Of a DNA stretch of 42,100 bases, positions 14,666-31,453 are shown in pieces. Source of the DNA: a virus. Within the stretch, counting starts at the first letter, position 1; each line of letters begins with the position of its first letter. Under the pieces are notes generated by a model, which saw only the letters and a program-made list of their open reading frames with translations, did not search any database and had not been told where the DNA came from. The stretch lies in the IMG/VR virus record IMGVR_UViG_3300024999_000199, positions 1-42,100 of that record, one strand, 5' to 3'. Made by a program: the position numbers and the translations under genes.

Positions 14666-15888
14666 GTATCTTGAATTTTTTAAGAGCAAAAAAATATACC
14701 GATCAAGTTACTGGCGGTCTTGCTGAAACATTATTTAATGTGGAGTCTGTATCATACACAAGAAATTTATTTAACCCATTAAATTTTTTGACAGATTCAG
14801 AACTAAGTGGATCTACAGGAGAAGTTATTAGCGCATCTGGTGCTGGAGTTTCGGATTTTATTGCAGTTGACAGTGGGAAATCTATATACTTTTCTAATAA
14901 CGGTGCATCATTAGTTGCATATAAGCTTTACTTCATTTACGAATATGATACAAGAAAGAAATATATTAAAAGAGTAAACGCATCAACCGCAGGATATTTG
15001 TATGTTGTACCGGACAATGTCAGGTATATAAGAGTATGTATACATGAGTCAGTTTTTAATGCGTTTCAAGCGGAATACAATCAGATAACCTCTTATATCT
15101 CACGTTATCCCTTGGTTAAAGACAAACTTAATGGAATTCTATCATCTGATTTATCGGATAATCCATTGGAAAATATATTACCCAACCCTGGTTTTATGTC
15201 AATTTTCCTGAATGTTGGTTGTATTGGTGATAGTTTGGCGAGTGGCTGCTCCGTGTATAAAGACGGCGAATCTAGCATTGGCGTGGATTTGTATCAATAT
15301 TCATGGGGGCAGTATCTTGCAAGAATAACAGGAAACAAATACTATAATTGGTCAGCAGGTGGCAAAACAACTGCTACATGGCTTGCTAGTGCTTACGCTA
15401 CAGAGTGCTTTGATGGACTCCATCTTTGTGAAGCTTATATTATTGGTTTAGGGCAAAACGACAAAAACATAGATGCAGTTATTGGAACATCAGAGGATAT
15501 TGATATAAGTAATTATAACAACAATGCTGACACTTATTATGGGAGATATGCGAAAATAATACAAAAAATAAAAGAGGTTCAACCGAAAGCTAAGATATTT
15601 ATATGTACTGACCCTCTCGATTTAGTGGAAAATGCAGGATACAACACTGCTGTCAGAACGATTTCAACTATGTTCAGCAATGTGTATCTTCTTGATTTCT
15701 TTAATTACGGGACAAATCTTTATATAACAGGATTATTGGGGGTAAATAGGAGATACGCGCATTATAATGCAGTCGGGTATTACATTATAGCGTTGATAAT
15801 GGCTACCTATATTGATTGGTATATACGCAAATATCCAGAGGAATTCCTAGAGGTCGAATTTATCGGGACAGGCTATTCCTATTATTAA
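14662..15888 (+). CDS. Tail protein with SGNH/GDSL hydrolase domain
   Basis: A 408-aa protein. Residues ~1-180 look structural; from ~185 it has SGNH hydrolase blocks: GDSLAS (nucleophile Ser191), NWSAGGKT (Gly of block II, ~229-236), GLGQND (262-267, block III Asn) and YAHYNAVGY (catalytic His367). SGNH enzymes on phage tails usually de-esterify or trim surface glycans during adsorption. The gene is visibly more AT-rich than the preceding tail genes, suggesting recent exchange of the receptor-contact module. Start ATG 14662 overlaps the preceding stop. Confidence 0.85.
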   Translation: MSILNFLRAKKYTDQVTGGLAETLFNVESVSYTRNLFNPLNFLTDSELSGSTGEVISASGAGVSDFIAVDSGKSIYFSNNGASLVAYKLYFIYEYDTRKKYIKRVNASTAGYLYVVPDNVRYIRVCIHESVFNAFQAEYNQITSYISRYPLVKDKLNGILSSDLSDNPLENILPNPGFMSIFLNVGCIGDSLASGCSVYKDGESSIGVDLYQYSWGQYLARITGNKYYNWSAGGKTTATWLASAYATECFDGLHLCEAYIIGLGQNDKNIDAVIGTSEDIDISNYNNNADTYYGRYAKIIQKIKEVQPKAKIFICTDPLDLVENAGYNTAVRTISTMFSNVYLLDFFNYGTNLYITGLLGVNRRYAHYNAVGYYIIALIMATYIDWYIRKYPEEFLEVEFIGTGYSYY

Positions 15889-15920
15889 ACCTTCGTTAAA
15901 GATACAAAGCTCTTTGACCC

Positions 15921-15948
15921 AACAAAAAAGCCCCCAATTAAGGGGGCT
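15921..15948 (-). terminator. Intrinsic terminator of the XerD-like island
   Basis: On the minus strand, AGCCCCC, a TTAAT loop and GGGGGCT followed by TTTTTG (plus coordinates 15948-15922). It lies just beyond the recombinase stop and has a T run only in the minus direction. Confidence 0.85.
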
Positions 15949-15953
15949 CTGCA

Positions 15954-16781
15954 TCAGTTTACCAAAAACTTATCGTACATCCTAGCCATCTCTGACCCGT
16001 TAATATTTGTGTACCTGCGAGTCGTTTCTGTACTGTGGTGTCCGAGTAACCTAGCTATAAAATCAATATCCGCGCCCTGCTCATACATCCCTGTAGCAAA
16101 TGTATGACGGAGCATATGAGGTGTTACCTTGTCCTTTATCCCTGCCTTCTTAGCCTGGTCCTTGATCTGCATCTCGATGCTTCGGATCGTCAAGCGTTCG
16201 CCGTATTTATTGACAAGCAGGGCAGGGTTATCATCTTTCCGAGTGTTAAGGTAACTGATAATGCAAAATTTCGCAATCGGTCCAAAAAAGACAAGTCGCT
16301 CTTTATTTCCCTTGCCCGTAACTCTTATCTGGCGATTGGCCATGACTAAATCATCGCGGTTTAGTTTTACGAGTTCGCCAATCCTCATACCTGACGATAC
16401 GAGCAACTCCATGATAGCTTGATTGCGAGGTGATTTAGGATGCCAACGTAGCAATTCTACATCTTCATGGCTAAGATTACGTGGTAGCATATCCGGTTCC
16501 TTTGGCGTTTTTATTTTCCTCATTGGATTTTTCTCGAGATACTCCTCTTCTACCAACCAGGTGTAGTATGCCTTAAGGGTTGATATCTTGCGGTTGATAC
16601 TGCGTTGTGCCATCTCATTGAATTGAGTTAAGTAACCACGCAAGTCATTGGTCGTAACATAGACGGATGGCTTGTCCAAGTATTTTGCAAACTTTTTTAG
16701 CTCCATTCTGTATTGATCCATGGTCCCATCAGCTAAGCCCTCTAGCTTTCTTGCAACTAAAAATTCCTCGACATATCTCAT
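15954..16781 (-). CDS. XerD-like tyrosine recombinase
   Basis: A 275-aa tyrosine recombinase of XerC/D size and organisation: SAM-like N-terminal core-binding domain (~1-90), then the catalytic domain. Catalytic residues appear complete: Arg133 (SGMRIGE), Lys157 (GKGNK), His222/Arg225 (HMLRH), His248 (LLGHHS), Tyr257 (RRYTN). It lacks an arm-binding N-terminal domain, unlike the integrase at 30350. Possible jobs are multimer resolution of a circular form, or mobility of its own island. SD GAGGAG precedes the ATG. Confidence 0.88.
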   Translation of the reverse strand: MRYVEEFLVARKLEGLADGTMDQYRMELKKFAKYLDKPSVYVTTNDLRGYLTQFNEMAQRSINRKISTLKAYYTWLVEEEYLEKNPMRKIKTPKEPDMLPRNLSHEDVELLRWHPKSPRNQAIMELLVSSGMRIGELVKLNRDDLVMANRQIRVTGKGNKERLVFFGPIAKFCIISYLNTRKDDNPALLVNKYGERLTIRSIEMQIKDQAKKAGIKDKVTPHMLRHTFATGMYEQGADIDFIARLLGHHSTETTRRYTNINGSEMARMYDKFLVN

Positions 16782-19151: not shown

Positions 19152-19160
19152 CATAGCAAA

Positions 19161-19192
19161 AGCCCTCTCCTAATTGGAGGGGGCTTTTTTGT
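19161..19192. terminator. Strong terminator at the end of the late operon
   Basis: AGCCCTCTCC (19161-19170), loop TAATT, GGAGGGGGCT (19176-19185), then TTTTTTG on the plus strand. It also overlaps the end of the minus-strand helix-turn-helix gene, so it may serve both directions, though the minus-side T run is weaker. Confidence 0.85.
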
Positions 19193-19385
19193 TTTGTCCG
19201 AATACTCGCTCCATACCTTGCCGGGTAATGATCCAATACTTACCGGTTTGCCGCGCTTCGTCGGGCAGAAACTTCCCATCTTGGCAGTATCGTTTTACCT
19301 TTGTCTCAGAAATTTCCCAGGCCCTTGCCGCCTCGGGGCAGGAGAGGACATCCGAGAATAGGATCCTTTTTTCTTTAGTTGTCAT
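19170..19385 (-). CDS. Small helix-turn-helix (MerR/excisionase-like) protein
   Basis: A 71-aa protein with a winged-helix DNA-binding pattern: DVLSCPEAARAWEISETKVKR, then GKFLPDEARQTGKYWIITRQGMERVFG. Similar proteins occur as excisionases or accessory regulators. AGGAGG precedes two adjacent ATGs (19388 and 19385); the second has better spacing. The start overlaps the stop of the methyltransferase gene, so it is the last cistron of the long accessory operon. A regulatory role for that operon is possible. Confidence 0.72.
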   Translation of the reverse strand: MTTKEKRILFSDVLSCPEAARAWEISETKVKRYCQDGKFLPDEARQTGKYWIITRQGMERVFGQNKKAPSN

Positions 19386-20041
19386 CATTTATCCTCCTTT
19401 AACTCGTAGGTAAAACCATTTTTTGATAAATTCTCAAGCAGGACGGACAATCGCTTGTGATTTAGCTCGGTACCGACAAACCGTTTTCCGTTTTTGTGTG
19501 CATTTATGCCGACCAATCCGCGCCCCATGCACAGATCCCCAATGCAACCATAGTCCTCATTTTCACAGATCCACTTGATAATATCCTCTTCATCCATGTA
19601 GTCGAGAGGTAATTTCTTTCGCTTTGCGCTACCCCTGATCACATAGCACATGTTTTCCTTTTTGTGATAATAACTACTGTTATAAAAGGTTACGTGTTTG
19701 TAAATGGCTTTCATCTCCTGAATAAATTCGCTCAGAAATTCCTTACCTACTTCGACATAGCAAACCGTTGGTTTAGTCTCACTGATACATTCAAAGAGTC
19801 GCTTATAAAACGTTGTAAAGCTATCTTGGTAGTCCTGCCGCTCAGCTTTAGTATAGAATGTGTTCAGATTTCCGAGGTTCCATGGTGGGTCCGCGAAAAT
19901 CAAGTCTGCATACGTCATAAAAGAGGGGAGAGGGTCGAAAATATTGTGAACTTTGACCGCGCTGCCATCATCAAACACTGCTGTCTGGTTATCGGCTATG
20001 GGGTATCTTATATAAGCATCGCCATAATTCCACTTAGCCAA
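19385..20041 (-). CDS. DNA methyltransferase, DPPW type
   Basis: A 218-aa putative amino-methyltransferase. Motif IV DPPW lies at about residue 55 (ADLIFADPPWNLGN), and an SAM-binding-like motif (GDLCMGRGLVGINA...FVGTELN) is near the C-terminus, the permuted order of beta-class/MT-A70-like enzymes. It probably methylates adenine (or N4 of cytosine). The TTG at 20041 has GGAGG 9 nt upstream and starts inside the IbrB-like gene. No restriction endonuclease partner is adjacent, so it looks like an orphan or a component of this operon. Confidence 0.82.
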   Translation of the reverse strand: MAKWNYGDAYIRYPIADNQTAVFDDGSAVKVHNIFDPLPSFMTYADLIFADPPWNLGNLNTFYTKAERQDYQDSFTTFYKRLFECISETKPTVCYVEVGKEFLSEFIQEMKAIYKHVTFYNSSYYHKKENMCYVIRGSAKRKKLPLDYMDEEDIIKWICENEDYGCIGDLCMGRGLVGINAHKNGKRFVGTELNHKRLSVLLENLSKNGFTYELKEDK

Positions 20042-20570
20042 CGTCTTCGACCTCCTGCATTTCCCACGACTTCGAGTAGATCTGGTTCTTAAACAGTTCT
20101 GCAATCCCTGTGATTTGCTTGAGACGAAAGACCTCCTCAATTTCCATACCCAGTTTTTGTGCTACTTCCTCGTCGGGTACACCTTGCTCAACAAGCGCTT
20201 GCACGAGATCTCCCATGAGTTCGACTTGGTGGACTCCACGAGCGCGGTTGAATTGCACTGTGGCCTCCATGCGCTTTGTGATGTCGTGCTCCAGGACGAT
20301 GATTGGGATCTGCCTAGCTTGCAATCTGTCTCTGAACTCCATGTATCGGTGATCGCCATCGACGACAATATACTTCTCAAGATCGGGGTCCCAAACTGTG
20401 ACAACCGCGAAACAAAAACCATTAGACATGATTGATTCCTCGAGGAGATCCATATTTTGAGATGATACGCTATTCGGGTTGTAGGTGTTTGATTGGACCT
20501 TGTCTATATCAACAATGATCGGATTCATACACGGGAGTTTAATTGGCCCTTTTTTAGATTCTATAATCAT
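20034..20570 (-). CDS. IbrB-like ParB/Srx-fold protein
   Basis: A 178-aa protein with a ParB/sulfiredoxin-fold N-terminal half: VDIDKVQSNTYNPNSVSSQ, EESIMSNGFCFAVVTVW, VVDGDHRYMEFRDR, and then helical HQVELMGDLVQALVEQG...EEVAQKLGMEIEEVFRLKQ. Together with the adjacent PAPS-reductase-like gene this is the IbrA/IbrB arrangement described on an E. coli phage and common on mobile elements. The ATG at 20570 overlaps the ibrA-like stop (ATGA), with GGAGGG 6 nt upstream. Molecular function is not established. Confidence 0.8.
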   Translation of the reverse strand: MIIESKKGPIKLPCMNPIIVDIDKVQSNTYNPNSVSSQNMDLLEESIMSNGFCFAVVTVWDPDLEKYIVVDGDHRYMEFRDRLQARQIPIIVLEHDITKRMEATVQFNRARGVHQVELMGDLVQALVEQGVPDEEVAQKLGMEIEEVFRLKQITGIAELFKNQIYSKSWEMQEVEDVG

Positions 20571-21694
20571 AGCAATTCCCTCCATTTCTTGATCGTGGCT
20601 TCTCGTGGGTCTGGCTTGTTATCTACAGGCAAATTGTTCTCGTAGTCATTCAGGACCAGCTGCCTGCACTGCTGGCGAGCGACATGAGGATTATTTAAGT
20701 GCTTGCCGAATCGCTTAACAAAAATAGCTTTTTTGGTATCATCAGGGTAAGTCTCTAGTAAGAAATCTCTATAATCAATCCATGTCTTAAAGTTCTTCGG
20801 CAACTTCTGGACCTTGAGCATCTTAGTGTCTTTGCCGTATAGATTGCCGATACTGATGCCCTTGACGCGTTTTAGTAATTTATTATAAGTGCGCGGTTCA
20901 AACTCTGGTAGTTCCACGAGGGATTTAAAAGACTTCTCGTGGATGAGGCTTGATACTCTGATCTCTTGTATGCCCATGCCTTTCTTGTACATATAGTCAT
21001 AGATTTTCGAGTACTTCAGCCCGGTATCATAGATATATTTCCAGATGTCGTGGAAGTTCCAATCGTAGAGCGGATACATAGACACGTTGTTATTCTTCAT
21101 CCTGGTGCACCAAAACACATTCTTGTACCCGGGATTCTTCGCAACCGCCCGCCATCGGTTAGGGCTTTCTGTGGCTCTCAGACCAACAAGGAAGGCTGTG
21201 TTCTCCCGGGAGTTTTGGAAGTTCTCAAGAGCATCATAAAAGCCGAAGCCCTTGTTCTTGTCTCTAACTGTTTCTTTTTCGATGGCCCATGGGTTGTGCT
21301 GGATGGAGTCTTTCTGCTTCGAGCGGAGCCAAATCTTGTGTTTGCCTGCTTCCCAGCATATAAGCTGCCCCTCGGTTAAACTGGATGCATTAGTAAGCTT
21401 AAACTCAATCTGATACCATAAGCGGATTGTGTTCTCGGGATATAAGCTCATGATGTACTCTATTTGCTTAATCGTACTATCGTAAACAACTTCTTCGTCC
21501 AAGAAAAATATACCGACTTTTCGGCCTCGTTTGTTTGCCTCCAAGAGCGCAAGGTGAGCTAATACTGTGCTATCTTTTCCGCCGCTTATCGAGACGACGA
21601 TATTCTCAAACTCATCGAAGATATAGGCCATACGCTCCTTTGCTGAGTCCAAGACAGTTTTATTTATATAGACTTGCTTGAGCATAGATTGCAT
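20567..21694 (-). CDS. IbrA-like PAPS reductase/ATP-pyrophosphatase family protein
   Basis: A 375-aa PP-loop protein. SISGGKDSTVLAH (residues ~34-46) is the pyrophosphatase P-loop, followed by GIFFLDEEVVYDSTIKQIEYIM, GLRATESPNRWRAV and WNFHDIWKYIYDTGLKYSKIYD, matching the IbrA/DUF3440-like branch of the PAPS reductase superfamily. Such enzymes adenylate a substrate to activate it. The substrate here is unknown, and sulfate assimilation is unlikely on a phage. Paired with the ParB-fold gene by ATGA overlap. Start taken at 21694; Met at 21685 is an alternative. Confidence 0.85.
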   Translation of the reverse strand: MQSMLKQVYINKTVLDSAKERMAYIFDEFENIVVSISGGKDSTVLAHLALLEANKRGRKVGIFFLDEEVVYDSTIKQIEYIMSLYPENTIRLWYQIEFKLTNASSLTEGQLICWEAGKHKIWLRSKQKDSIQHNPWAIEKETVRDKNKGFGFYDALENFQNSRENTAFLVGLRATESPNRWRAVAKNPGYKNVFWCTRMKNNNVSMYPLYDWNFHDIWKYIYDTGLKYSKIYDYMYKKGMGIQEIRVSSLIHEKSFKSLVELPEFEPRTYNKLLKRVKGISIGNLYGKDTKMLKVQKLPKNFKTWIDYRDFLLETYPDDTKKAIFVKRFGKHLNNPHVARQQCRQLVLNDYENNLPVDNKPDPREATIKKWRELL

Positions 21695-22535
21695 CTAACC
21701 TCGCTTTCCACTTTGAGAATTCCGTGATAATTACATTATCGATCGAGAGGATCGTGCTCAGGTATTTGATCTTTGTCATACGCGTTATTTTGAGAAAATC
21801 GTTGAAGTTGATCCGTCGGTAGTGGGTGTCAATGATGATGTAGCTTCCTTGCTTGTTAATCTCGTCATAAGTCATGACGTTATCGAACTTAAACCGCTTA
21901 TTCCTAGCGATGTACATTTCCCCCGGGATAATAGCCTTCTTTTTGAGATCCCCGACAAAGAGCTGCAGGTTTCGCGGTACGGTTTCAGGGTCCTTTTCTC
22001 CAAGGTTATCAAAGAGCTGGTCGCGTTTCTTCTCGTATCGCTCCTTATCCTTATCAGTGATCTCGACGTTAATTGGCTCCAGTTTGACTCGGAAGGGCTT
22101 TATTTTAATGTCTTCAGCTTGCAGAAATACATAGTCGAATGCCTTTCCTTTATACTTGCCCTTGTTCTCGAAATCAAGTAGGATCATGAAATCGTTCTTA
22201 TCCTCGATGATCGGGAAGAACTCGAAGATGATCTTATGGGGCGTTTGGTTTAAGTAGTGGTGAGCGCAGTTATAAATTAACTCGCTCCGGTTCTGCGTTC
22301 TCATGCACTCATCCATGATTGTGAGCGATTTATCGTTGATTTCCTCAAGTAGACGATAGAAAAACTTATACATTTCGATATCAGCGTACTCGATATATTC
22401 TATTTCAACCGGCACGTTGTACTTGGAAGGATATTTCTTGAAGTAGAAGCAGTAGATCTTCTTAATTTCATTTTCCTGCAAATAGGCATCAATCACTTTT
22501 TGTTTGTCGCGACTGTTTAGTCCGATTCTGATCAT
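21660..22535 (-). CDS. Hypothetical protein linked to IbrA-like gene
   Basis: A 291-aa charged protein rich in Lys, Tyr and Phe, alpha/beta in appearance (IRIGLNSRDKQKVIDAYLQENEIKKIYCFYF; LTIMDECMRTQNRSELIYNCAHHYL). No motif is recognised with certainty. It overlaps the helicase stop by ATGA and the IbrA-like gene by 35 nt, so it is co-translated with both and probably acts in the same process. Confidence 0.7.
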   Translation of the reverse strand: MIRIGLNSRDKQKVIDAYLQENEIKKIYCFYFKKYPSKYNVPVEIEYIEYADIEMYKFFYRLLEEINDKSLTIMDECMRTQNRSELIYNCAHHYLNQTPHKIIFEFFPIIEDKNDFMILLDFENKGKYKGKAFDYVFLQAEDIKIKPFRVKLEPINVEITDKDKERYEKKRDQLFDNLGEKDPETVPRNLQLFVGDLKKKAIIPGEMYIARNKRFKFDNVMTYDEINKQGSYIIIDTHYRRINFNDFLKITRMTKIKYLSTILSIDNVIITEFSKWKARLDAIYAQASLYK

Positions 22536-23944
22536 AGATTCTTAATCAACTCCTTTAGTTTATTTTTATTGCCGATATTCTTCTCAACCTCCTGCCTGAA
22601 CGATGTAGCGGCATCTTCCTTGTCGGATAGCGCCTTATTTATCCGGTCGTCAATACTCCCCGAGCAATAGATATCAATGTAGGTGACGGGGTACTCTTGC
22701 CCAATACGGTGGTTACGATCCTCCGCCTGTATTCTCTCGCTGTACTTAAATCCATTGTTGTAAAATATAACATAGTGCGATTCGTTCAGGGTCAAACCAT
22801 GCCCGCCACAGCTGGGAGTTGAGATGAAGAAACGCGCAGGTCCTCGGAATAGTTCGACTTGCTTTACGCGCTCCTTCTCAGATATTCCGCCATGAAAGAG
22901 CGCAATAGAGTCTTCGCCGTACTGGCTAGATAGGGCTTTGGCGATGTGATTAATGTCATAACGGAACTTAGCCCAAATGATGATCTTCTCCCGTTCGGGG
23001 ATATCAACGATCGTGTCCATTAAGGTTTCCATGCGGTAATGCCTAAACTCAATCAATTCAAATTTTCGTCTCACTCGGCGATTCCAGAAACCGCAGGTGA
23101 TCTCCTGTAAAACGGTGAACAGGCGGAATATAACCGTCGAATCCCAATCCTCTTTTTCTAGCTCGGCGAGAATCTCCTCCTTGGCGACATAATACATGTG
23201 CCCCTGTTCGTCGGTAAAGTGGAAATATCGTGTTTCATAGAGTTTTTTCGGTAGGTCTAAGCACTCCTCCTTTGTGATCTGGTAGACGTAAGGCTTTACC
23301 TTTGCCGCTAGATATGCCGTGTTGTGGCTCCTGACGATGCGACCGGGGAACTTTTCAGAGTACTCAAGGTGATTCGCCGCGAAAGAATAAAACGAATTGT
23401 ATCCGAGAATCTTGGGGCTCAAGAATCGCATCTGTGCGTATAGGTCCACAACGCCTTGAGAGAGCGGAGTTCCAGTTAGAATGAGCCTATAGCGTGCCTT
23501 TTTGCCCAATGTCGTGATTCGCAAGGTCCGCTTTGAGTCGTGCCCTTTAATGTAGCTTGATTCGTCCAGGATAACCATAGTCCTCGTGGTAATGAGTTTG
23601 CTCGCCGCTAGGACCATTCGCGTGCTACTGCTCATCGACTCGATACCGACAATATACCACAAGACTTTGGGGGTTGATCGCTCCCGCGTCTTACTCCCAA
23701 AAACGTATATGTCAGCGTCAGTACAATCGGTGTGCTTAAGTATCTCCTGCCTAACGGTTTCCTTGAGACTGACGGGGCAAAAGTATACCACTTTGTCAAT
23801 CTTATTAATTCGGCGCGAGACGAGTTCGAACGATATCCTCGTCTTGCCTAGCCCCATGTCGATCAGCAAGCCGCCAATAGTGGTTCGAATCATTTCCTCG
23901 ACCGCTGGTACCTGATGGGGAAGGAGATCAGTCCTTAAATTCAT
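22532..23944 (-). CDS. SNF2/DEAD-like superfamily 2 helicase
   Basis: A 470-aa SF2 ATPase. Motifs: MGLGKT (I), ILDESSYI (II, DExx-type), LTGTPLS (III), IIWAKFRYD and STPSCGGHGLTLNES (IV-V), QAEDRNHRIGQ (VI). This motif set is typical of SNF2-like translocases encoded by phages. The true start is most likely Met at 23944, within the end of the preceding gene; residues read upstream of it are arginine-rich shadow sequence. It may translocate on DNA for the accessory operon or for replication. Confidence 0.88.
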   Translation of the reverse strand: MNLRTDLLPHQVPAVEEMIRTTIGGLLIDMGLGKTRISFELVSRRINKIDKVVYFCPVSLKETVRQEILKHTDCTDADIYVFGSKTRERSTPKVLWYIVGIESMSSSTRMVLAASKLITTRTMVILDESSYIKGHDSKRTLRITTLGKKARYRLILTGTPLSQGVVDLYAQMRFLSPKILGYNSFYSFAANHLEYSEKFPGRIVRSHNTAYLAAKVKPYVYQITKEECLDLPKKLYETRYFHFTDEQGHMYYVAKEEILAELEKEDWDSTVIFRLFTVLQEITCGFWNRRVRRKFELIEFRHYRMETLMDTIVDIPEREKIIIWAKFRYDINHIAKALSSQYGEDSIALFHGGISEKERVKQVELFRGPARFFISTPSCGGHGLTLNESHYVIFYNNGFKYSERIQAEDRNHRIGQEYPVTYIDIYCSGSIDDRINKALSDKEDAATSFRQEVEKNIGNKNKLKELIKNL

Positions 23945-24371
23945 CGGCGATCTCCACGTTTTCTGGCACTTCCAATACCGTCGGCTTATCACAGACAACG
24001 GCACGCTCCATTTTCTTTGGCGCAGTGGGGCTGGCAACGATGGCGTTATCCCTTAGTTCTTCAGCCTTTTCGACAATCCTTTTCGCTCCGTCTGACAGCT
24101 CGAACTTATACATCTCTGCAAAGTCCAGCACCTCCTCAAAGTGCTCCGGAGAGACAACAACATTTGGCTTATCGTATTTGGCGCCAGTGATTGCTTTAGC
24201 CTTGCGATAGAGGTCTTCATCTCGACTCCATGATATCGATAACCAGCCCTCGTATTTACCATCGGTGCGCGACATAACCCAACGCGTGCATTCTGGTTTG
24301 TAGTCTGCACTGATTGCCTTCTCGCGGATCTCAGCGTCGAATATCCGGATGGAATAACCGGCATAAAGCAT
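23928..24371 (-). CDS. C-terminal part of a frameshifted accessory-operon protein
   Basis: A 147-residue frame (LYAGYSIRIFDAEIREKA..., TRWVMSRTDGKYEGWLSISW, VVVSPEHFEEVLDFAEMYKFELSDGAKRIVEKA). It reads as a natural continuation of the protein encoded upstream in the +1-related frame, whose own continuation becomes low-complexity arginine-rich sequence. There is an ATG at 24371 but no ribosome binding site. It is therefore probably the 3' part of one gene interrupted near 24372 by an indel or a recoding event. Confidence 0.65.
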   Translation of the reverse strand: MLYAGYSIRIFDAEIREKAISADYKPECTRWVMSRTDGKYEGWLSISWSRDEDLYRKAKAITGAKYDKPNVVVSPEHFEEVLDFAEMYKFELSDGAKRIVEKAEELRDNAIVASPTAPKKMERAVVCDKPTVLEVPENVEIADEFKD

Positions 24372-25081
24372 TTGTTTCCAGCTTCGGCGGCGCGATCCTC
24401 GATGGAGCCTTGCTTAATAGCAATACGACGTTTCCAACCATCAGACCATATCATACTTAACTCAGACTTAACGATCTCGCGGAAGCCTTCATGTTTCTCG
24501 GGGAAGCGGATCTCAAGAATGTCGTCGAGGATACGGATCTCTGCCACTGTTTCAGTGATGGGATTCTCGGGCCTGACGGTTGACTCGGCTAAGGTATCGA
24601 TAACAGTTTCGTTTTTAGGAGCGGCGACTTGATTAACTCCCAAAGATTCATACTCCTTAGTCATTAATTCCTCAAGCTCAAAATCTCCCTTGATATAACG
24701 ACGATCAATCCACCAGTGAGCTGTTGTTTTATTGCGTATAGCCTGATAGGCCTCTTGGATCGCAAGCTCATTACGGTTCTTATTGTTGCGTTTGTTGTAG
24801 ATTATTGCGTCCAAATCGGCCATGATTCGCTGGCGAATTGTTTCAGCCCAGGGAATTTGCTTCTCGGTTCCGGTTAGTACTGGGTAGTTATTTTCCTTCG
24901 CAACTTCAGCGGCTTCGCGGTTTGCTTCTTCGCGTTTCCGCTGGAGATCAATCTGATAGCACTCTGAGCAAAGCTTATAGGGTTCAACGCTTTCTAGTCG
25001 CCATTCGCGGTCTTTAGTCTTGCCGACTAGGGCCACGGTTTCCTCGTGGCCACAGGAGCGGGTTACTGTGTACTTAGCCAT
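24053..25081 (-). CDS. N-terminal part of a frameshifted zinc-finger protein
   Basis: This frame runs for 342 codons, but only the first ~237 (25081 to about 24372) look genuine. They hold a zinc-binding N-terminus (SCGHEETV...LCSECY), a charged helix (QRKREEANREAAEVAKEN) and LEIRFPEKHEGFREIVKSEL...WKRRIAIKQG. After EDRAAEAGNK the frame turns into Ser/Arg-rich shadow sequence while the -1 frame carries the plausible continuation. GAGGAGG precedes the ATG. Function unknown; it is the second cistron of the accessory operon. Confidence 0.65.
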   Translation of the reverse strand: MAKYTVTRSCGHEETVALVGKTKDREWRLESVEPYKLCSECYQIDLQRKREEANREAAEVAKENNYPVLTGTEKQIPWAETIRQRIMADLDAIIYNKRNNKNRNELAIQEAYQAIRNKTTAHWWIDRRYIKGDFELEELMTKEYESLGVNQVAAPKNETVIDTLAESTVRPENPITETVAEIRILDDILEIRFPEKHEGFREIVKSELSMIWSDGWKRRIAIKQGSIEDRAAEAGNKCFMPVIPSGYSTLRSARRQSVQTTNQNARVGLCRAPMVNTRAGYRYHGVEMKTSIARLKQSLAPNTISQMLLSLRSTLRRCWTLQRCISSSCQTERKGLSKRLKN

Positions 25082-25104
25082 TAAAATCTTCCTCCTCGCC
25101 AGAA

Positions 25105-25389
25105 TTAAGGTAAGTAAACGTCTGAATGCTCTCCTTCGATGTAAGGGATAGGGCTCTTGCTGATAGAGAGGGGATTACTCTCGTAATAAGACTTTCTTTT
25201 CAAAACGAATTTTATATCAGAGTTAATAGTGATGAAGGCCTTTTTGCCTTTAGGATCTACTGATGTTACGGTACCTTCTTCGAAATTGAATTCACCGCCA
25301 TTCTGATTAAAGAGAACCTTCATGCCGACCTCAACATTTTCAGCAGTAACCATTACGTGACTTGCTATGAATTCTTGAATATTAATCAA
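25105..25389 (-). CDS. Hypothetical first protein of the Ibr/helicase operon
   Basis: A 94-aa protein starting with TTG. The pattern VEVGMKVLFNQNGGEFNFEEGTVTSVDPKGKKAFITINSD resembles a small beta-barrel (KOW/SH3-like), but the family is not certain. GAGGA lies upstream of the TTG, and a promoter with a large inverted repeat lies 38-78 nt upstream. As first cistron it could be a regulator or a structural partner of the operon products. Confidence 0.65.
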   Translation of the reverse strand: MINIQEFIASHVMVTAENVEVGMKVLFNQNGGEFNFEEGTVTSVDPKGKKAFITINSDIKFVLKRKSYYESNPLSISKSPIPYIEGEHSDVYLP

Positions 25390-25426
25390 CTCGCGTTCCT
25401 CGCTTTCAACTCTTTATCTTAATGCT

Positions 25427-25467
25427 ATTATAGCACGACAACGACCACAATGCAAGCGTTGTCGTGC
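25427..25467 (-). promoter_or_regulatory. Promoter and 11-bp inverted-repeat operator of the Ibr/helicase operon
   Basis: On the minus strand, TTGCAT (25455-25450), 17-nt spacer, TATAAT (25432-25427). GCACGACAACG (25433-25443) and CGTTGTCGTGC (25457-25467) form a perfect 11-bp inverted repeat with a 13-nt spacer. One arm fills the -35/-10 spacer and the other lies just upstream of -35. A bound repressor would silence the operon. Confidence 0.82.
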
Positions 25468-25480
25468 AGAAATAAAACAC

Positions 25481-25518
25481 AAAAAAGCCCTCGGCCTTAA
25501 TTGGTCGGGGGCTTTTTT
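25481..25518 (-). terminator. Terminator after the membrane-anchored protein gene
   Basis: GCCC-CG-CC style stem (25487-25495 with 25502-25512) around TTAATT, flanked by A6 on one side and T6 on the other, so it can act in both directions. It lies immediately after the 215-aa gene on the minus strand. Confidence 0.82.
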
Positions 25519-26477: not shown

Positions 26478-27146
26478 CTACCTCCTTAATAATCCGTACA
26501 CATCGCTCTGTATCTGATCCATGGGGGCGACAATTATATTAAGATCACTCTTAATGGTGAGATCCGCATCGGTGACGATTAGGATAGTGGGGAATATGGC
26601 GGTATTTCCTTTAATCACAGACCATTCCTCGTGTATCCAATCCGCATCATAAACCTTTTGATATTGCTCTGGCTTATCGAATCGCTTACTGGGGTTTCGT
26701 TCCACCTCAATAAACACAACCTTTCGACCCTTGCGATCCGGATCAGTGTAGATGGTCGCCATTGCATCAGCAACTACCATGCCGCCAAGGATCTGATAAT
26801 TCCACTTCCACTCGATTACATACCAGGGTTTTTTCTGTGCAAGCAGGGCACAATAAATATCATTGACGAGTAAAACATGATCTAGTTGCTTTGGTTTCCT
26901 CGCGTAATAAATCGTTGGCAGCTGAGGGGAACGGGACCACTTCTTGATCCGCTCCTGTTTACATAATCTCGCCAGGGCATATTGAGCGATCCGCTTCGAC
27001 GACTTACGATTAGTAAACACAACTTGCTCTATTTGCCTCCTAGTGAGCGCTGTCCCTGCTTGGATTAGCTTTACTATGCGTTCATCCCTGCTTTGTCCGT
27101 AGGCTACGCAATTTGTCCCTGCGAACCGTTTTAGATGCTCGTTCAT
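26478..27146 (-). CDS. Replication-relaxation family protein
   Basis: A 222-aa protein with an N-terminal winged-helix pattern (DERIVKLIQAGTALTRRQIEQVVF) and a nuclease-like C-terminal half (HVLLVNDIYCALL, WKWNYQILGGMVVADAMATI, VFIEVERNPSKRFDKPEQYQKVYDA). This matches the replication-relaxation family found on plasmids and integrative elements, often next to an FtsK-like gene, as here. The biochemical role is not well defined; it may initiate or regulate replication of a circular form. Confidence 0.82.
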   Translation of the reverse strand: MNEHLKRFAGTNCVAYGQSRDERIVKLIQAGTALTRRQIEQVVFTNRKSSKRIAQYALARLCKQERIKKWSRSPQLPTIYYARKPKQLDHVLLVNDIYCALLAQKKPWYVIEWKWNYQILGGMVVADAMATIYTDPDRKGRKVVFIEVERNPSKRFDKPEQYQKVYDADWIHEEWSVIKGNTAIFPTILIVTDADLTIKSDLNIIVAPMDQIQSDVYGLLRR

Positions 27147-27153
27147 CCTTCTG

Positions 27154-28557
27154 TCACTCCTTCGCTGATTTCCTCACAGCGGTATTCGCCCCCAGTGGTT
27201 GTACCAAGCGTAAATTTCCCCTTTGTATCTGATCTTCGTGGTCATCGGGGTCGCATAACTGCCCTTTCCTACTCTCTTTTCTTATCTCCTCCTTTATAAT
27301 GGTTTCGCGCGGTGATTTAGTTACCTTTTTCACAACCTCAGATTGTGCCTTTTGTGGCTTTTGGTAGGCTGACATGAGGTCCTTAATTACCTTGTTATCA
27401 ATGTACGGGACCTGTATTAAGACTTGGTCTTTGAACGAGAATAACGCTCTGCCCTCGACATCTGGATCAATCATGCTGGCCGCCTTATAATCCTCCTCAT
27501 CTTCGCCGAGTAGGACCCTTGCCGATACAGCGTTACATCTAAAAGCCACTACAGCACTAAAATTATTTTTCATTGTGCCAGACACAAGATTTGCGGTGGG
27601 GCGGTGGCAGGAGATAATAACATGGACTCCTGAGCCCCTAGATTCCCCTGTTACCTTGGTCATTTTTTCGCGTGCCACTTTGAATTCCTTGCCCTCCAAC
27701 TTTGTCATTTCATCGACATAAACCACGATTCGAGGAAGTCGTTTCTCGGGGAATTCCTCATTGTAAGCTGCCAAATCATCGCATTCATGTTGCTTGAATA
27801 GATCGTATCTCTCGCCGATAATCTTGGATAGATCATCCATCATTTGTTCTACTTCCTCGGCATCGGAAATAGTTCTGTCTACAAGGATAGGGTCCTTCCC
27901 TAACCTTGCTGTCCCATTGCCATGTTTAAGGTCGCACAGCCACAAACGGCAATCGTCACGAGTATATCTGATGTGCAGGGCCGCCATGATCAGTCTGCCT
28001 AAGATCGACTTTCCACCGCCGGTAGCTCCTCCTATCATAAGGTGAGGACTATTACTAGACGCTAGATTTAACTGTTCTAGACCGCGCCTTGACCATCCTA
28101 GGGGAATCCATAGCCCTTTGTCTTTTGGCACGCTCTGGGCCTCGTTGGTGTAGTTGATGCGGTCGAGTAGCTTGCCCGATAGGACTGTGAGTGAGAAGTG
28201 GGCTTTAGGATCATTTTCGAGTCTCTTGAATAAGACTTCGCGCTTGAGGTCGAACTCAATATCCATCAAACTCTTGATTAATTTACTGCCACTCAGACCG
28301 GTTGGGATCTTATACTTAAATACTCGATTATGGCCCTTCCAACCCTTGTCTATTAGGCGAGGGTATTCTTTCGTTACATAGTCCTTGCCGCGTTCCTTGG
28401 TCTCGACACAGACATCATTACGCTTCCAGGCGAGCATGATTCGCCCCGGGTGCGAGTCGCTTTCTTTTCCGATGTGACGCAATGCGAATCTGACGACCTT
28501 GACAATTGATGAGGAGATGAGGCCAAGGATGTCTGGGGTTGTTGCTTTATCACTCAT
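27154..28557 (-). CDS. FtsK/SpoIIIE-like DNA translocase
   Basis: A 467-aa single-polypeptide motor without N-terminal membrane segments. Walker A GGATGGGKS at residues 176-184, Walker B IVVYVDEM at 277-284, then a conserved GSGVHVIISCHRPTANLVSGTMKNNF stretch. Plasmid and ICE FtsK-like proteins move DNA during transfer or segregation. The ATG at 28557 follows GGGAGG; an upstream ATG would cross the promoter/operator region. It heads an operon with the replication-relaxation gene. Presence on a tailed phage suggests a plasmid-like maintenance stage. Confidence 0.88.
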   Translation of the reverse strand: MSDKATTPDILGLISSSIVKVVRFALRHIGKESDSHPGRIMLAWKRNDVCVETKERGKDYVTKEYPRLIDKGWKGHNRVFKYKIPTGLSGSKLIKSLMDIEFDLKREVLFKRLENDPKAHFSLTVLSGKLLDRINYTNEAQSVPKDKGLWIPLGWSRRGLEQLNLASSNSPHLMIGGATGGGKSILGRLIMAALHIRYTRDDCRLWLCDLKHGNGTARLGKDPILVDRTISDAEEVEQMMDDLSKIIGERYDLFKQHECDDLAAYNEEFPEKRLPRIVVYVDEMTKLEGKEFKVAREKMTKVTGESRGSGVHVIISCHRPTANLVSGTMKNNFSAVVAFRCNAVSARVLLGEDEEDYKAASMIDPDVEGRALFSFKDQVLIQVPYIDNKVIKDLMSAYQKPQKAQSEVVKKVTKSPRETIIKEEIRKESRKGQLCDPDDHEDQIQRGNLRLVQPLGANTAVRKSAKE

Positions 28558-28598
28558 GGTTATTCCTCCCTTCGCGAACTCCTTCGCTGTGATATACA

Positions 28599-28618
28599 AT
28601 ATGGTCGATCATCCATAT
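28599..28618. promoter_or_regulatory. 20-bp operator upstream of FtsK-like gene
   Basis: ATATGG-N8-CCATAT, a perfect palindromic pair. The same half-sites and spacer length recur at 28909-28928 on the other side of the XRE gene. It lies in the promoter region of the FtsK-like operon. Confidence 0.72.
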
Positions 28619-30334: not shown

Positions 30335-30368
30335 AAAAAAGCCGAGGGATTAACCCCCGGCTTTTTTG
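30335..30368. terminator. Bidirectional terminator between small gene and integrase
   Basis: A6, GCCGAGGG (30341-30348), loop ATTAA, CCCCCGGC (30354-30361), T6. The A6/T6 flanks let it act for both convergent transcripts. Confidence 0.9.
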
Positions 30369-31453
30369 TTTATAAAAATATCTTCCAGTACATTGGACGC
30401 CTCGTTGTCCATATCTGGCAAAACGTGCTGATATATCTCCCTTGTGATTTGCACTTGGCTATGACCTAATCTTTCGCTTGCTATCTTGTCGGGTACTCCA
30501 TATCTCATCATCAGCGTGGCGTTGAAGTGGCGGAGGTCGTGGAATCTAATATGGGGGAGTTCGTTGTCTTCGAGGAGTTTTTTAAAGTGCTGGGAATAAG
30601 CACTAGGTTTATACTGCCCGCATATTCGCTCAGGAACAACTTTGAGCGATGTTAGGTATTCACTGATTACATCGATAACAAACCTAGGAATCCTTATCCT
30701 CCTCTGACTCGTTTCTGATTTTGGAGGCTTGATGATCCAATCTCCATTCATCCTGACCATTGTTTCCACGATGGAGATTTTGCACTCCTTAAAATCAATG
30801 TCTCTAAGTCTTAGCCCAAATATCTCACCGCGCCTCAGACCACATACCCCCGCGAGCAGGATGCAGACCTCGTCGAATGTTCCCTTAGCTATCATTAGCA
30901 ACTTATTAAAGTTTTCCTCGTTGTAGATCGTAGGTGTGAACTTCTTGCCCTTTGGCTTATCAACTCCATCGCAGGGATTGTATTTGATGAGCCTATTCTT
31001 CATCGCGTCCTTGAGGACCATGTTTAAAAATGCGTGTAGTTTACCAACGGACTTACCAGATAAACCTTCTGACTTGCGATTATAAAACTCCTGCAGTTGG
31101 ATCGGCATGATCTTCTTGATCTTCAATGCTCCGATCTCATCGGGAATTATATGCTTGTCCATGTAGATTTTGTAGAGCTGTTTTGTTGTCTCTTCGAGAT
31201 CCGCTGTGTACGCCTTATACCATTCTTCCAAATACTCTTCGAGAGTGGCGTTTGACTCGTTTGCGTAGAGGTTATTTTTGATCTCATACTCAAGGGCGTT
31301 GACCCTTGACCATAATTCCTTTTCTTGCTTGGAATCGCTTAGATTTGTTTTGCCGTAGAATGTTTTTTGTTTCCTCTCTCCATTGCGATCCTTGGGGAGT
31401 TCGACCACGCCACGCCATCGACCTGTCTTTTTGTCCTGGTACACACTGCCCAT
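30350..31453 (-). CDS. int: Phage integrase (tyrosine recombinase)
   Basis: A 367-aa integrase with an N-terminal arm-binding AP2-like domain (GSVYQDKKTGRWRGVVELP), a core-binding domain (~70-165) and the catalytic domain. Catalytic set: Arg207 or 208 (GLRRGE), Lys245 (PPKSE), His305/Arg308 (HDLRH), His331 (RLGHS), Tyr341 (REIYQHV), all present. It should recombine attP (29213-29449) with the host tRNA-Leu gene. It is transcribed with the repressor, which ends 4 nt upstream. Confidence 0.95.
   Translation of the reverse strand: MGSVYQDKKTGRWRGVVELPKDRNGERKQKTFYGKTNLSDSKQEKELWSRVNALEYEIKNNLYANESNATLEEYLEEWYKAYTADLEETTKQLYKIYMDKHIIPDEIGALKIKKIMPIQLQEFYNRKSEGLSGKSVGKLHAFLNMVLKDAMKNRLIKYNPCDGVDKPKGKKFTPTIYNEENFNKLLMIAKGTFDEVCILLAGVCGLRRGEIFGLRLRDIDFKECKISIVETMVRMNGDWIIKPPKSETSQRRIRIPRFVIDVISEYLTSLKVVPERICGQYKPSAYSQHFKKLLEDNELPHIRFHDLRHFNATLMMRYGVPDKIASERLGHSQVQITREIYQHVLPDMDNEASNVLEDIFINKKAGG

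Follow-up and report, generated by a model that had tools for sequence, protein, structure and literature searches.

An IbrA/IbrB gene core of phages adjoined by either an SNF2 helicase or a type IV-B Csf gene set

Introduction

The IMG/VR record IMGVR_UViG_3300024999_000199, analysed over 42,100 nucleotides (nt) and referred to here as the window, is a 42.1 kb temperate siphovirus-like sequence with terminase, portal, head, tape measure and endolysin genes. On its minus strand, from 25467 to 19158, eight closely packed cistrons form an apparent single transcription unit. Among them is a gene pair that fits the IbrA/IbrB definition, i.e. a protein of the 3′-phosphoadenosine-5′-phosphosulphate (PAPS) reductase fold with DUF3440 beside a ParB-fold protein, and it is found with an SNF2-family helicase, a 291 amino acid (aa) protein and a methyltransferase. 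The question raised by this locus is whether such an association recurs, and what it may be for. The 291-aa gene, the IbrA/IbrB pair and the methyltransferase gene are found as a core in related loci, and this core adjoins either the helicase or a type IV-B CRISPR-Cas (Csf) gene set.

Conservation of the core in relatives

A tblastn search of 50,697 deposited phages finds no relative of the 291-aa protein. Scans of IMG/VR and GTDB genomes give many loci, including those of Pelotomaculum, Clostridium, Anaerobacterium, Caldicoprobacter and a Desulfobulbales bacterium. Removal of duplicates leaves 45 distinct loci (given here as L numbers), which are the basis of the core counts. IbrA is present in 43/45, the methyltransferase in 41/45 and IbrB in 40/45, with absences mostly at contig ends. 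The order 291-aa protein, IbrA, IbrB, methyltransferase is the rule; in the deep members L070, L075 and L076 a methyltransferase-like gene precedes the 291-aa gene. The original prediction, made from the letters of the window, tied IbrA/IbrB to a DNA translocase and a methyltransferase and named gene-neighbourhood conservation of the 291-aa gene as a check. The linkage is not private to one genome; the core is conserved in the 45 loci, and helicase-IbrA-IbrB is found in many more. The related loci compared contain no counterpart of the first and last cistrons of the operon, ORF94 (an open reading frame, ORF) and the gene of a helix-turn-helix (HTH) protein. Thus the conserved unit consists of gene B, the helicase, the 291-aa protein, IbrA, IbrB and the methyltransferase.

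Helicase or Csf genes beside the core

The SNF2 helicase, usually with its partner gene B, lies upstream of the core in 34 of the 45 loci. Nine others have no helicase cassette; there csf1, cas11, csf2, csf3 and a CysH-like PP-loop gene adjoin the core instead. These loci display Csf1, Csf3 and usually Csf2/Cas11, not all subunits being detected in each. The type IV-B set is seen in L014, L015, L019, L039 and L043, and in part in L009, L053, L065, L075 and L076. In L015 the PADLOC type IV profiles give E-values of 1.6e-37 (Csf1_0_IV), 2.1e-36 (Cas11_0_IV), 7.4e-81 (type IV Cas7) and 1.4e-53 (Csf3_0_IV); NCBIfam TIGR03114/03115/03116 matches to the Csf genes are significant, though below the strict cut-offs. 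CysH is counted only from ORFs separate from IbrA, with Pfam/NCBIfam checks of two examples, since an iterated cysH profile also took in some IbrA sequences.

Helicase and Csf genes are found together in none of the 43 loci that carry one or the other. The whole viral Csf records contain no orthologous helicase, only weak or distant ATPase matches, and no Csf3 is found in 14 whole helicase records by a search whose positive control recovered 6/8 Csf records. If pairing were random and shared ancestry is ignored, the chance that all nine Csf loci lack a helicase is ~2e-9. With ancestry taken into account, the tree still requires four changes of the Csf label, at least three of them being forced by supported branches (quick method, SH-aLRT only, i.e. 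the Shimodaira-Hasegawa-like approximate likelihood ratio test). In L043 the core is situated inside the csf operon, which reads csf1-291aa-ibrA-ibrB-mt-cysH-cas11-csf2-csf3. The window operon itself has no csf1, cas11, csf2, csf3 or cysH.

No CRISPR array lies beside L014, L015 or L039, and array-less loci are typical of type IV-B (PMC8175902). In L039, a Caldicoprobacter contig, phage-type genes (identified by eye) follow the locus. Short tandem repeats that are not CRISPR arrays are found upstream of two Csf-type cores, at 4965-5171 of L053 (15- and 24-nt units) and at 4808-4900 of L065 (12-nt units). L065 also shows two adjacent csf3-like genes at 14924-16341 of its type IV-B-like locus.

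The helicase and the 291-aa protein

The helicase matches Pfam SNF2-rel_dom (3.6e-21) and Helicase_C (8.8e-13) as well as phrog_62, and among structures it matches the Sulfolobus SNF2 protein 1z63 (1.3e-25). Walker A (MGLGKT), DExx (LDES), motif III (LTGTP) and motif VI (QAEDRNHRIGQ) are kept, and are conserved in relatives.

The 291-aa protein has no match in the protein family library searches. Its AlphaFold 2 (AF2) model, with a predicted local distance difference test score (pLDDT) of 91.2, finds SNF2 ATPases in the PDB with E-values down to 8.7e-7 and template modelling (TM) scores of about 0.3-0.66, with high root-mean-square deviation over two lobes; the best viral relative is a 297-aa phage protein (TM 0.80). 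A GK[ST] Walker A is absent, only an N-terminal G5 and K11 being present, and motif II reads DECMRT/NECMRT. An hhalign comparison of the 291-aa family with the window-type helicase family gives an E-value of 2e-4 (46% probability), whereas with unrelated families the E-values are 0.08-0.64. The model and these alignments predict that the 291-aa protein is an SNF2/SF2-like pseudo-helicase with degenerate Walker A and motif II. It is collinear with a ~400-aa IbrAB-linked helicase, the similarity being weak by sequence (hhalign E 0.005-0.007), and it is likely descended from such a helicase.

IbrA, IbrB and the methyltransferase

IbrA matches the PAPS-reductase fold (Pfam, 4.4e-16), DUF3440 (8e-12) and phrog_2302 (8e-89). 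Sixteen diverse IbrA sequences conserve the SGGKDS loop along with several D, E, W and R residues, which makes ATP-pyrophosphatase chemistry likely. The same 16 sequences contain no invariant cysteine, the best column having Cys in 13/16, and persulphide transfer, as in Dnd-like thiolation, is therefore unlikely. Dnd-like thiolation was accordingly dropped as the leading idea, and the analogy with Dnd phosphorothioation drawn in the original prediction is weakened. A review describes CasCysH as likewise having a PP motif and no catalytic Cys, and draws the same conclusion on its chemistry (PMC8175902).

IbrB matches phrog_2159 (2.3e-48) and displays the motifs ANxYNPN, VDGxHR and NRARGxH. Its closest solved relatives, by weak matches, are Spo0J and free serine kinase (SerK). 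The ParB/Srx fold, the latter two motifs and these relatives together make it likely that IbrB binds nucleoside triphosphate (NTP).

The methyltransferase shows motif IV (DPPW) followed by motif I (GDLCMGRGLVG), both conserved in 38 relatives. These catalytic and S-adenosylmethionine-binding motifs are those of a putative DNA amino-methyltransferase.

IbrA/IbrB in other loci

A broad IbrA scan gives 80 other loci, with IbrB in 78/80 and, in 30/80, an SNF2 helicase that may or may not be accompanied by B; the 291-aa protein, the window-type methyltransferase and Csf are found in 0/80. An SNF2 protein of ~400 aa is also found beside IbrAB in deposited Streptococcus, Fusobacterium and Flavobacterium phages. 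This protein and the window helicase are homologues that share about 25% identity (E-values 1e-28 to 1e-36). Because of these 30 loci and the deposited phages, helicase-IbrA-IbrB is regarded as a recurrent association, and the pseudo-helicase and methyltransferase mark one clade of it. A second IbrAB lineage, found in a Csf2 scan, adjoins viral csf-cysH genes without the 291-aa protein (L089/L114, L101, L106). The IbrAB genes of other phages lie close to replication/recombination or packaging genes, and the suggestion that the system is lysogenic cargo is not borne out.

Several phages carry a cupin between IbrA and IbrB or fused to them, resembling ectoine synthase by eye and a possible clue to IbrAB chemistry (L145 7467-7841, L149 7287-7754, L163 7308-7700, L170 7296-8237). 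In many helicase-less phages the gene directly before IbrA encodes a protein of ~130 aa whose motif resembles LTN..NR.AWLGQAA (L121 5396-5809, L142 1082-1564, L177 5303-5695, L182 1991-2362). Fusobacterium phage phiFN37 (L081 10742-12462) has ParB-like and queuine tRNA-ribosyltransferase genes ~3 kb from IbrA-IbrB-helicase.

Operon architecture and gene B

The genes named in the original prediction are all present on the minus strand as eight mostly overlapping cistrons (Table 1). ORF94 and B are separated by a 23-nt gap, and all later junctions are overlaps of 4 to 35 nt: B to helicase 17 nt (helicase ATG at 23944, B stop ending at 23928), helicase to 291-aa gene 4 nt (ATGA), 291-aa gene to IbrA 35 nt, IbrA to IbrB 4 nt, IbrB to methyltransferase 8 nt and methyltransferase to HTH gene 4 nt. 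The starts of three genes, the helicase among them, are revised: IbrB likely begins at the ATG at 20570, not 20585, and the methyltransferase at the TTG at 20041, which follows AGGAGG, and not at the TTG farther upstream at 20140. The predicted single promoter is plausible, with its extended -10 on a palindrome; a generic promoter scan returned no more sites than shuffled sequence and missed this one.

Table 1. Features of the operon region of the window
Feature	Position	Strand	Basis or remark
Terminator-like hairpin preceding promoter	25484-25498		
Perfect 11-bp inverted repeat over promoter, probable operator	25433-25467	minus	Found once, 0/100 shuffles; putative function
Putative promoter TTGCAT-N17-TATAAT, TG-extended -10	25455-25427	minus	Read from sequence
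ORF94, small protein, TTG start	25105-25389	minus	No family match; not conserved in related loci
Gene B, interrupted	23928-25081	minus	Frames 24053-25081 (B1) and 23928-24371 (B2); phrog_16123
SNF2-family superfamily 2 (SF2) helicase, 470 aa	22532-23944	minus	Pfam, phrog_62, PDB
291-aa protein, predicted SNF2/SF2-like pseudo-helicase	21660-22535	minus	AF2 model, PDB fold search
IbrA-like PP-loop ATP-pyrophosphatase, PAPS-reductase fold and DUF3440	20567-21694	minus	Pfam, phrog_2302
IbrB-like ParB/Srx-fold protein	20034-20570	minus	phrog_2159, motifs
Amino-methyltransferase, 218 aa	19385-20041	minus	Pfam N6_N4_Mtase, motifs
HTH_59 excisionase-like small DNA-binding protein	19170-19388	minus	Pfam 6.1e-20; phrog_2655 excisionase 1.3e-12
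Terminator-like hairpin, operon end	19158-19188		

Two uncharacterised proteins had been placed upstream of the helicase. The first is ORF94; the second is a single gene, B, cut in two. In relatives B1 and B2 are joined in an uninterrupted frame of about 375-410 aa, and a nucleotide alignment to L003 puts a 1-nt deletion near 24370, with the missing base at GGAAACAAA-TGC. A programmed frameshift was considered and rejected. No canonical slippery heptamer is seen by eye and B is unbroken in relatives, which makes a deletion or a sequencing error the simpler explanation. Intact B homologues show an N-terminal Cys-containing region (CGH...CxxC) and a conserved C-terminal half. The AF2 model of the L003 homologue (pLDDT 87) gives no significant PDB match. 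A HARP (SMARCAL1) domain, suspected in B by eye, finds no Pfam match and no significant PDB fold match, and was discarded.

Elsewhere in the window, two tyrosine-recombinase integrase genes are found at 15954-16781 and 30350-31453, both on the minus strand. An FtsK-like ATPase adjoins a replication-initiation-like protein at 26478-28599, also on the minus strand, which is suggestive of a phage-plasmid.

Discussion

The operon is tentatively read as a phage DNA-directed, ATP-driven modification module built around IbrA/IbrB, with interchangeable targeting engines. The DNA-directed role already proposed in the original prediction is supported by the intact motifs of the SNF2 motor and by the conserved DPPW methyltransferase. 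That the core has either a motor of the SNF2 family or a type IV-B complex beside it, and in no locus both, gives reason to think that motor and complex solve the same problem. That problem would be the bringing of IbrAB to nucleic acid, and each would serve as a control for the other.

Composition, conservation, motifs and exchange of the module are seen directly in the sequences, whereas its chemistry, substrate and benefit are inferred. The exchangeable part, either the SNF2 motor with B or the Csf ribonucleoprotein with CysH, would carry the core to nucleic acid, and the 291-aa pseudo-helicase would be a structural adaptor between this part and the enzymes. IbrB would act as an NTP-binding ParB-like clamp or as a kinase. 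IbrA would split ATP into AMP and pyrophosphate, adenylating a group, and the modification that it places on DNA (or on RNA bound to DNA) would contain no sulphur. The methyltransferase would methylate adenine at N6 (or cytosine at N4), at the same sites or close to them, either accompanying this step or downstream of it. The outcome could be marked phage DNA that escapes host restriction, or altered host promoters.

Several observations weigh against such a module. The Pfam N6_N4_Mtase match of the methyltransferase is weak (5.6e-7) and there is no obvious target-recognition domain. In about 50 of the 80 other IbrA loci neither an SNF2 nor a Csf partner is detected, thus a motor is not obligatory for IbrAB, and the majority of phage type IV-B loci from the Csf2 scan are without IbrAB. 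B is broken in the window record, so the window copy of the operon may be impaired. Finally, Sandt et al. (2002) reportedly found that IbrAB activates eib transcription in E. coli.

This last observation leads to a different explanation, host takeover, in which IbrA and IbrB would be co-activators and the SNF2 motor would remodel RNA polymerase or nucleoid proteins as RapA does, switching phage or host promoters. The reported activation of prophage eib genes is an experimental precedent; moreover, the PHROG category of the pair is host takeover, and SNF2 proteins include RapA, a weak match to the window helicase. However, the eib activation could be indirect, and a simple activator needs neither a PP-loop enzyme with invariant catalytic residues nor a methyltransferase. 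Replacement of the helicase by Csf and CysH is also left unexplained, and transcription control is considered unlikely as the function of the operon.

The resemblance of the window helicase to the ZorD, DpdE and DrmD defence helicases suggests superinfection exclusion or conflict between elements. The motor or the Csf ribonucleoprotein would recognise competing phage or plasmid DNA, IbrB would damage it as a ParB-type nuclease, and the methyltransferase would protect self. Type IV CRISPR is linked to inter-element competition (PMC11656645) and nucleases are known in the ParB family (PMC12839542). But the helicase similarity is generic to SNF2, no gene of the operon gives a nuclease family match in the family library searches, and in Streptococcus and Flavobacterium phages the related genes lie beside ordinary early or packaging genes, which makes conflict improbable. 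It is equally improbable that a replication/recombination helicase pair (B with SNF2) and a separate IbrAB-methyltransferase cargo are co-transcribed only through early-gene packing. In favour of this, the SNF2 helicases of phages form a large family that is assigned to DNA metabolism (phrog_62), and many IbrAB loci have no helicase. Against it, the genes adjoin with overlapping frames in phages of many lineages and hosts, helicase and Csf exclude each other in all 43 loci, and in L043 the core is embedded in the csf operon.

The modification module is tentatively preferred, and it has a wider, more doubtful form. IbrA-IbrB with the pseudo-helicase could be an unrecognised phage nucleic-acid-modifying system, delivered by a translocase of the SNF2 family or by a Csf ribonucleoprotein of type IV-B, and type IV-B in such phages would then be for guided modification and not an immune effector. 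In the type IV-B literature CysH is called likely key to type IV-B function (PMC8175902 among these). The exchange may help to explain why IbrAB pairs recur in phages as unexplained 'auxiliary metabolic genes'. One glacial phage is reported to carry IbrA/B along with a type I-E CRISPR (PMC4490671). Neither the link of IbrAB with type IV-B nor the window operon was found in the openly searchable literature; an earlier mention may exist outside it. Each of the families has been described before; their combination and the helicase/Csf exchange seem to be new.

Comparison with known systems

DISARM, Zorya and Dpd share the SNF2 motor fold with the operon (DrmD, ZorD, DpdE), the scores reflecting the shared helicase fold only. 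Signatures of BREX, DISARM and Zorya (PglZ, BrxC, DrmA/B, ZorA/B) are not in the operon, which shows generic helicase, methyltransferase and PP-loop matches only. With Dnd/Ssp phosphorothioation and type 4 BREX it has in common a PP-loop enzyme, a ParB-family protein and helicase-type ATPases, with weak DndC/BrxP matches. In contrast to these systems, the operon gives no cysteine desulphurase (DndA/IscS), DndD/E, PglZ or BrxC match, and IbrA is without the invariant Cys.

The type IV-B CRISPR-Cas set replaces the helicase in relatives of the window core, and CasCysH and IbrA are alike in the PP motif and the missing catalytic Cys (PMC8175902). The window, however, has no csf genes, and the published IV-B loci that were found are not described with IbrB, the 291-aa protein or a window-type methyltransferase.

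The ibrAB genes of E. coli ECOR-9 belong to the same two families (phrog_2302/phrog_2159), and are overlapping and phage-borne as in the window. In E. coli phage PhiR5_2, IbrAB has no adjoining helicase or methyltransferase, whereas the window pair is packed together with an SNF2 helicase, a predicted pseudo-helicase and a methyltransferase.

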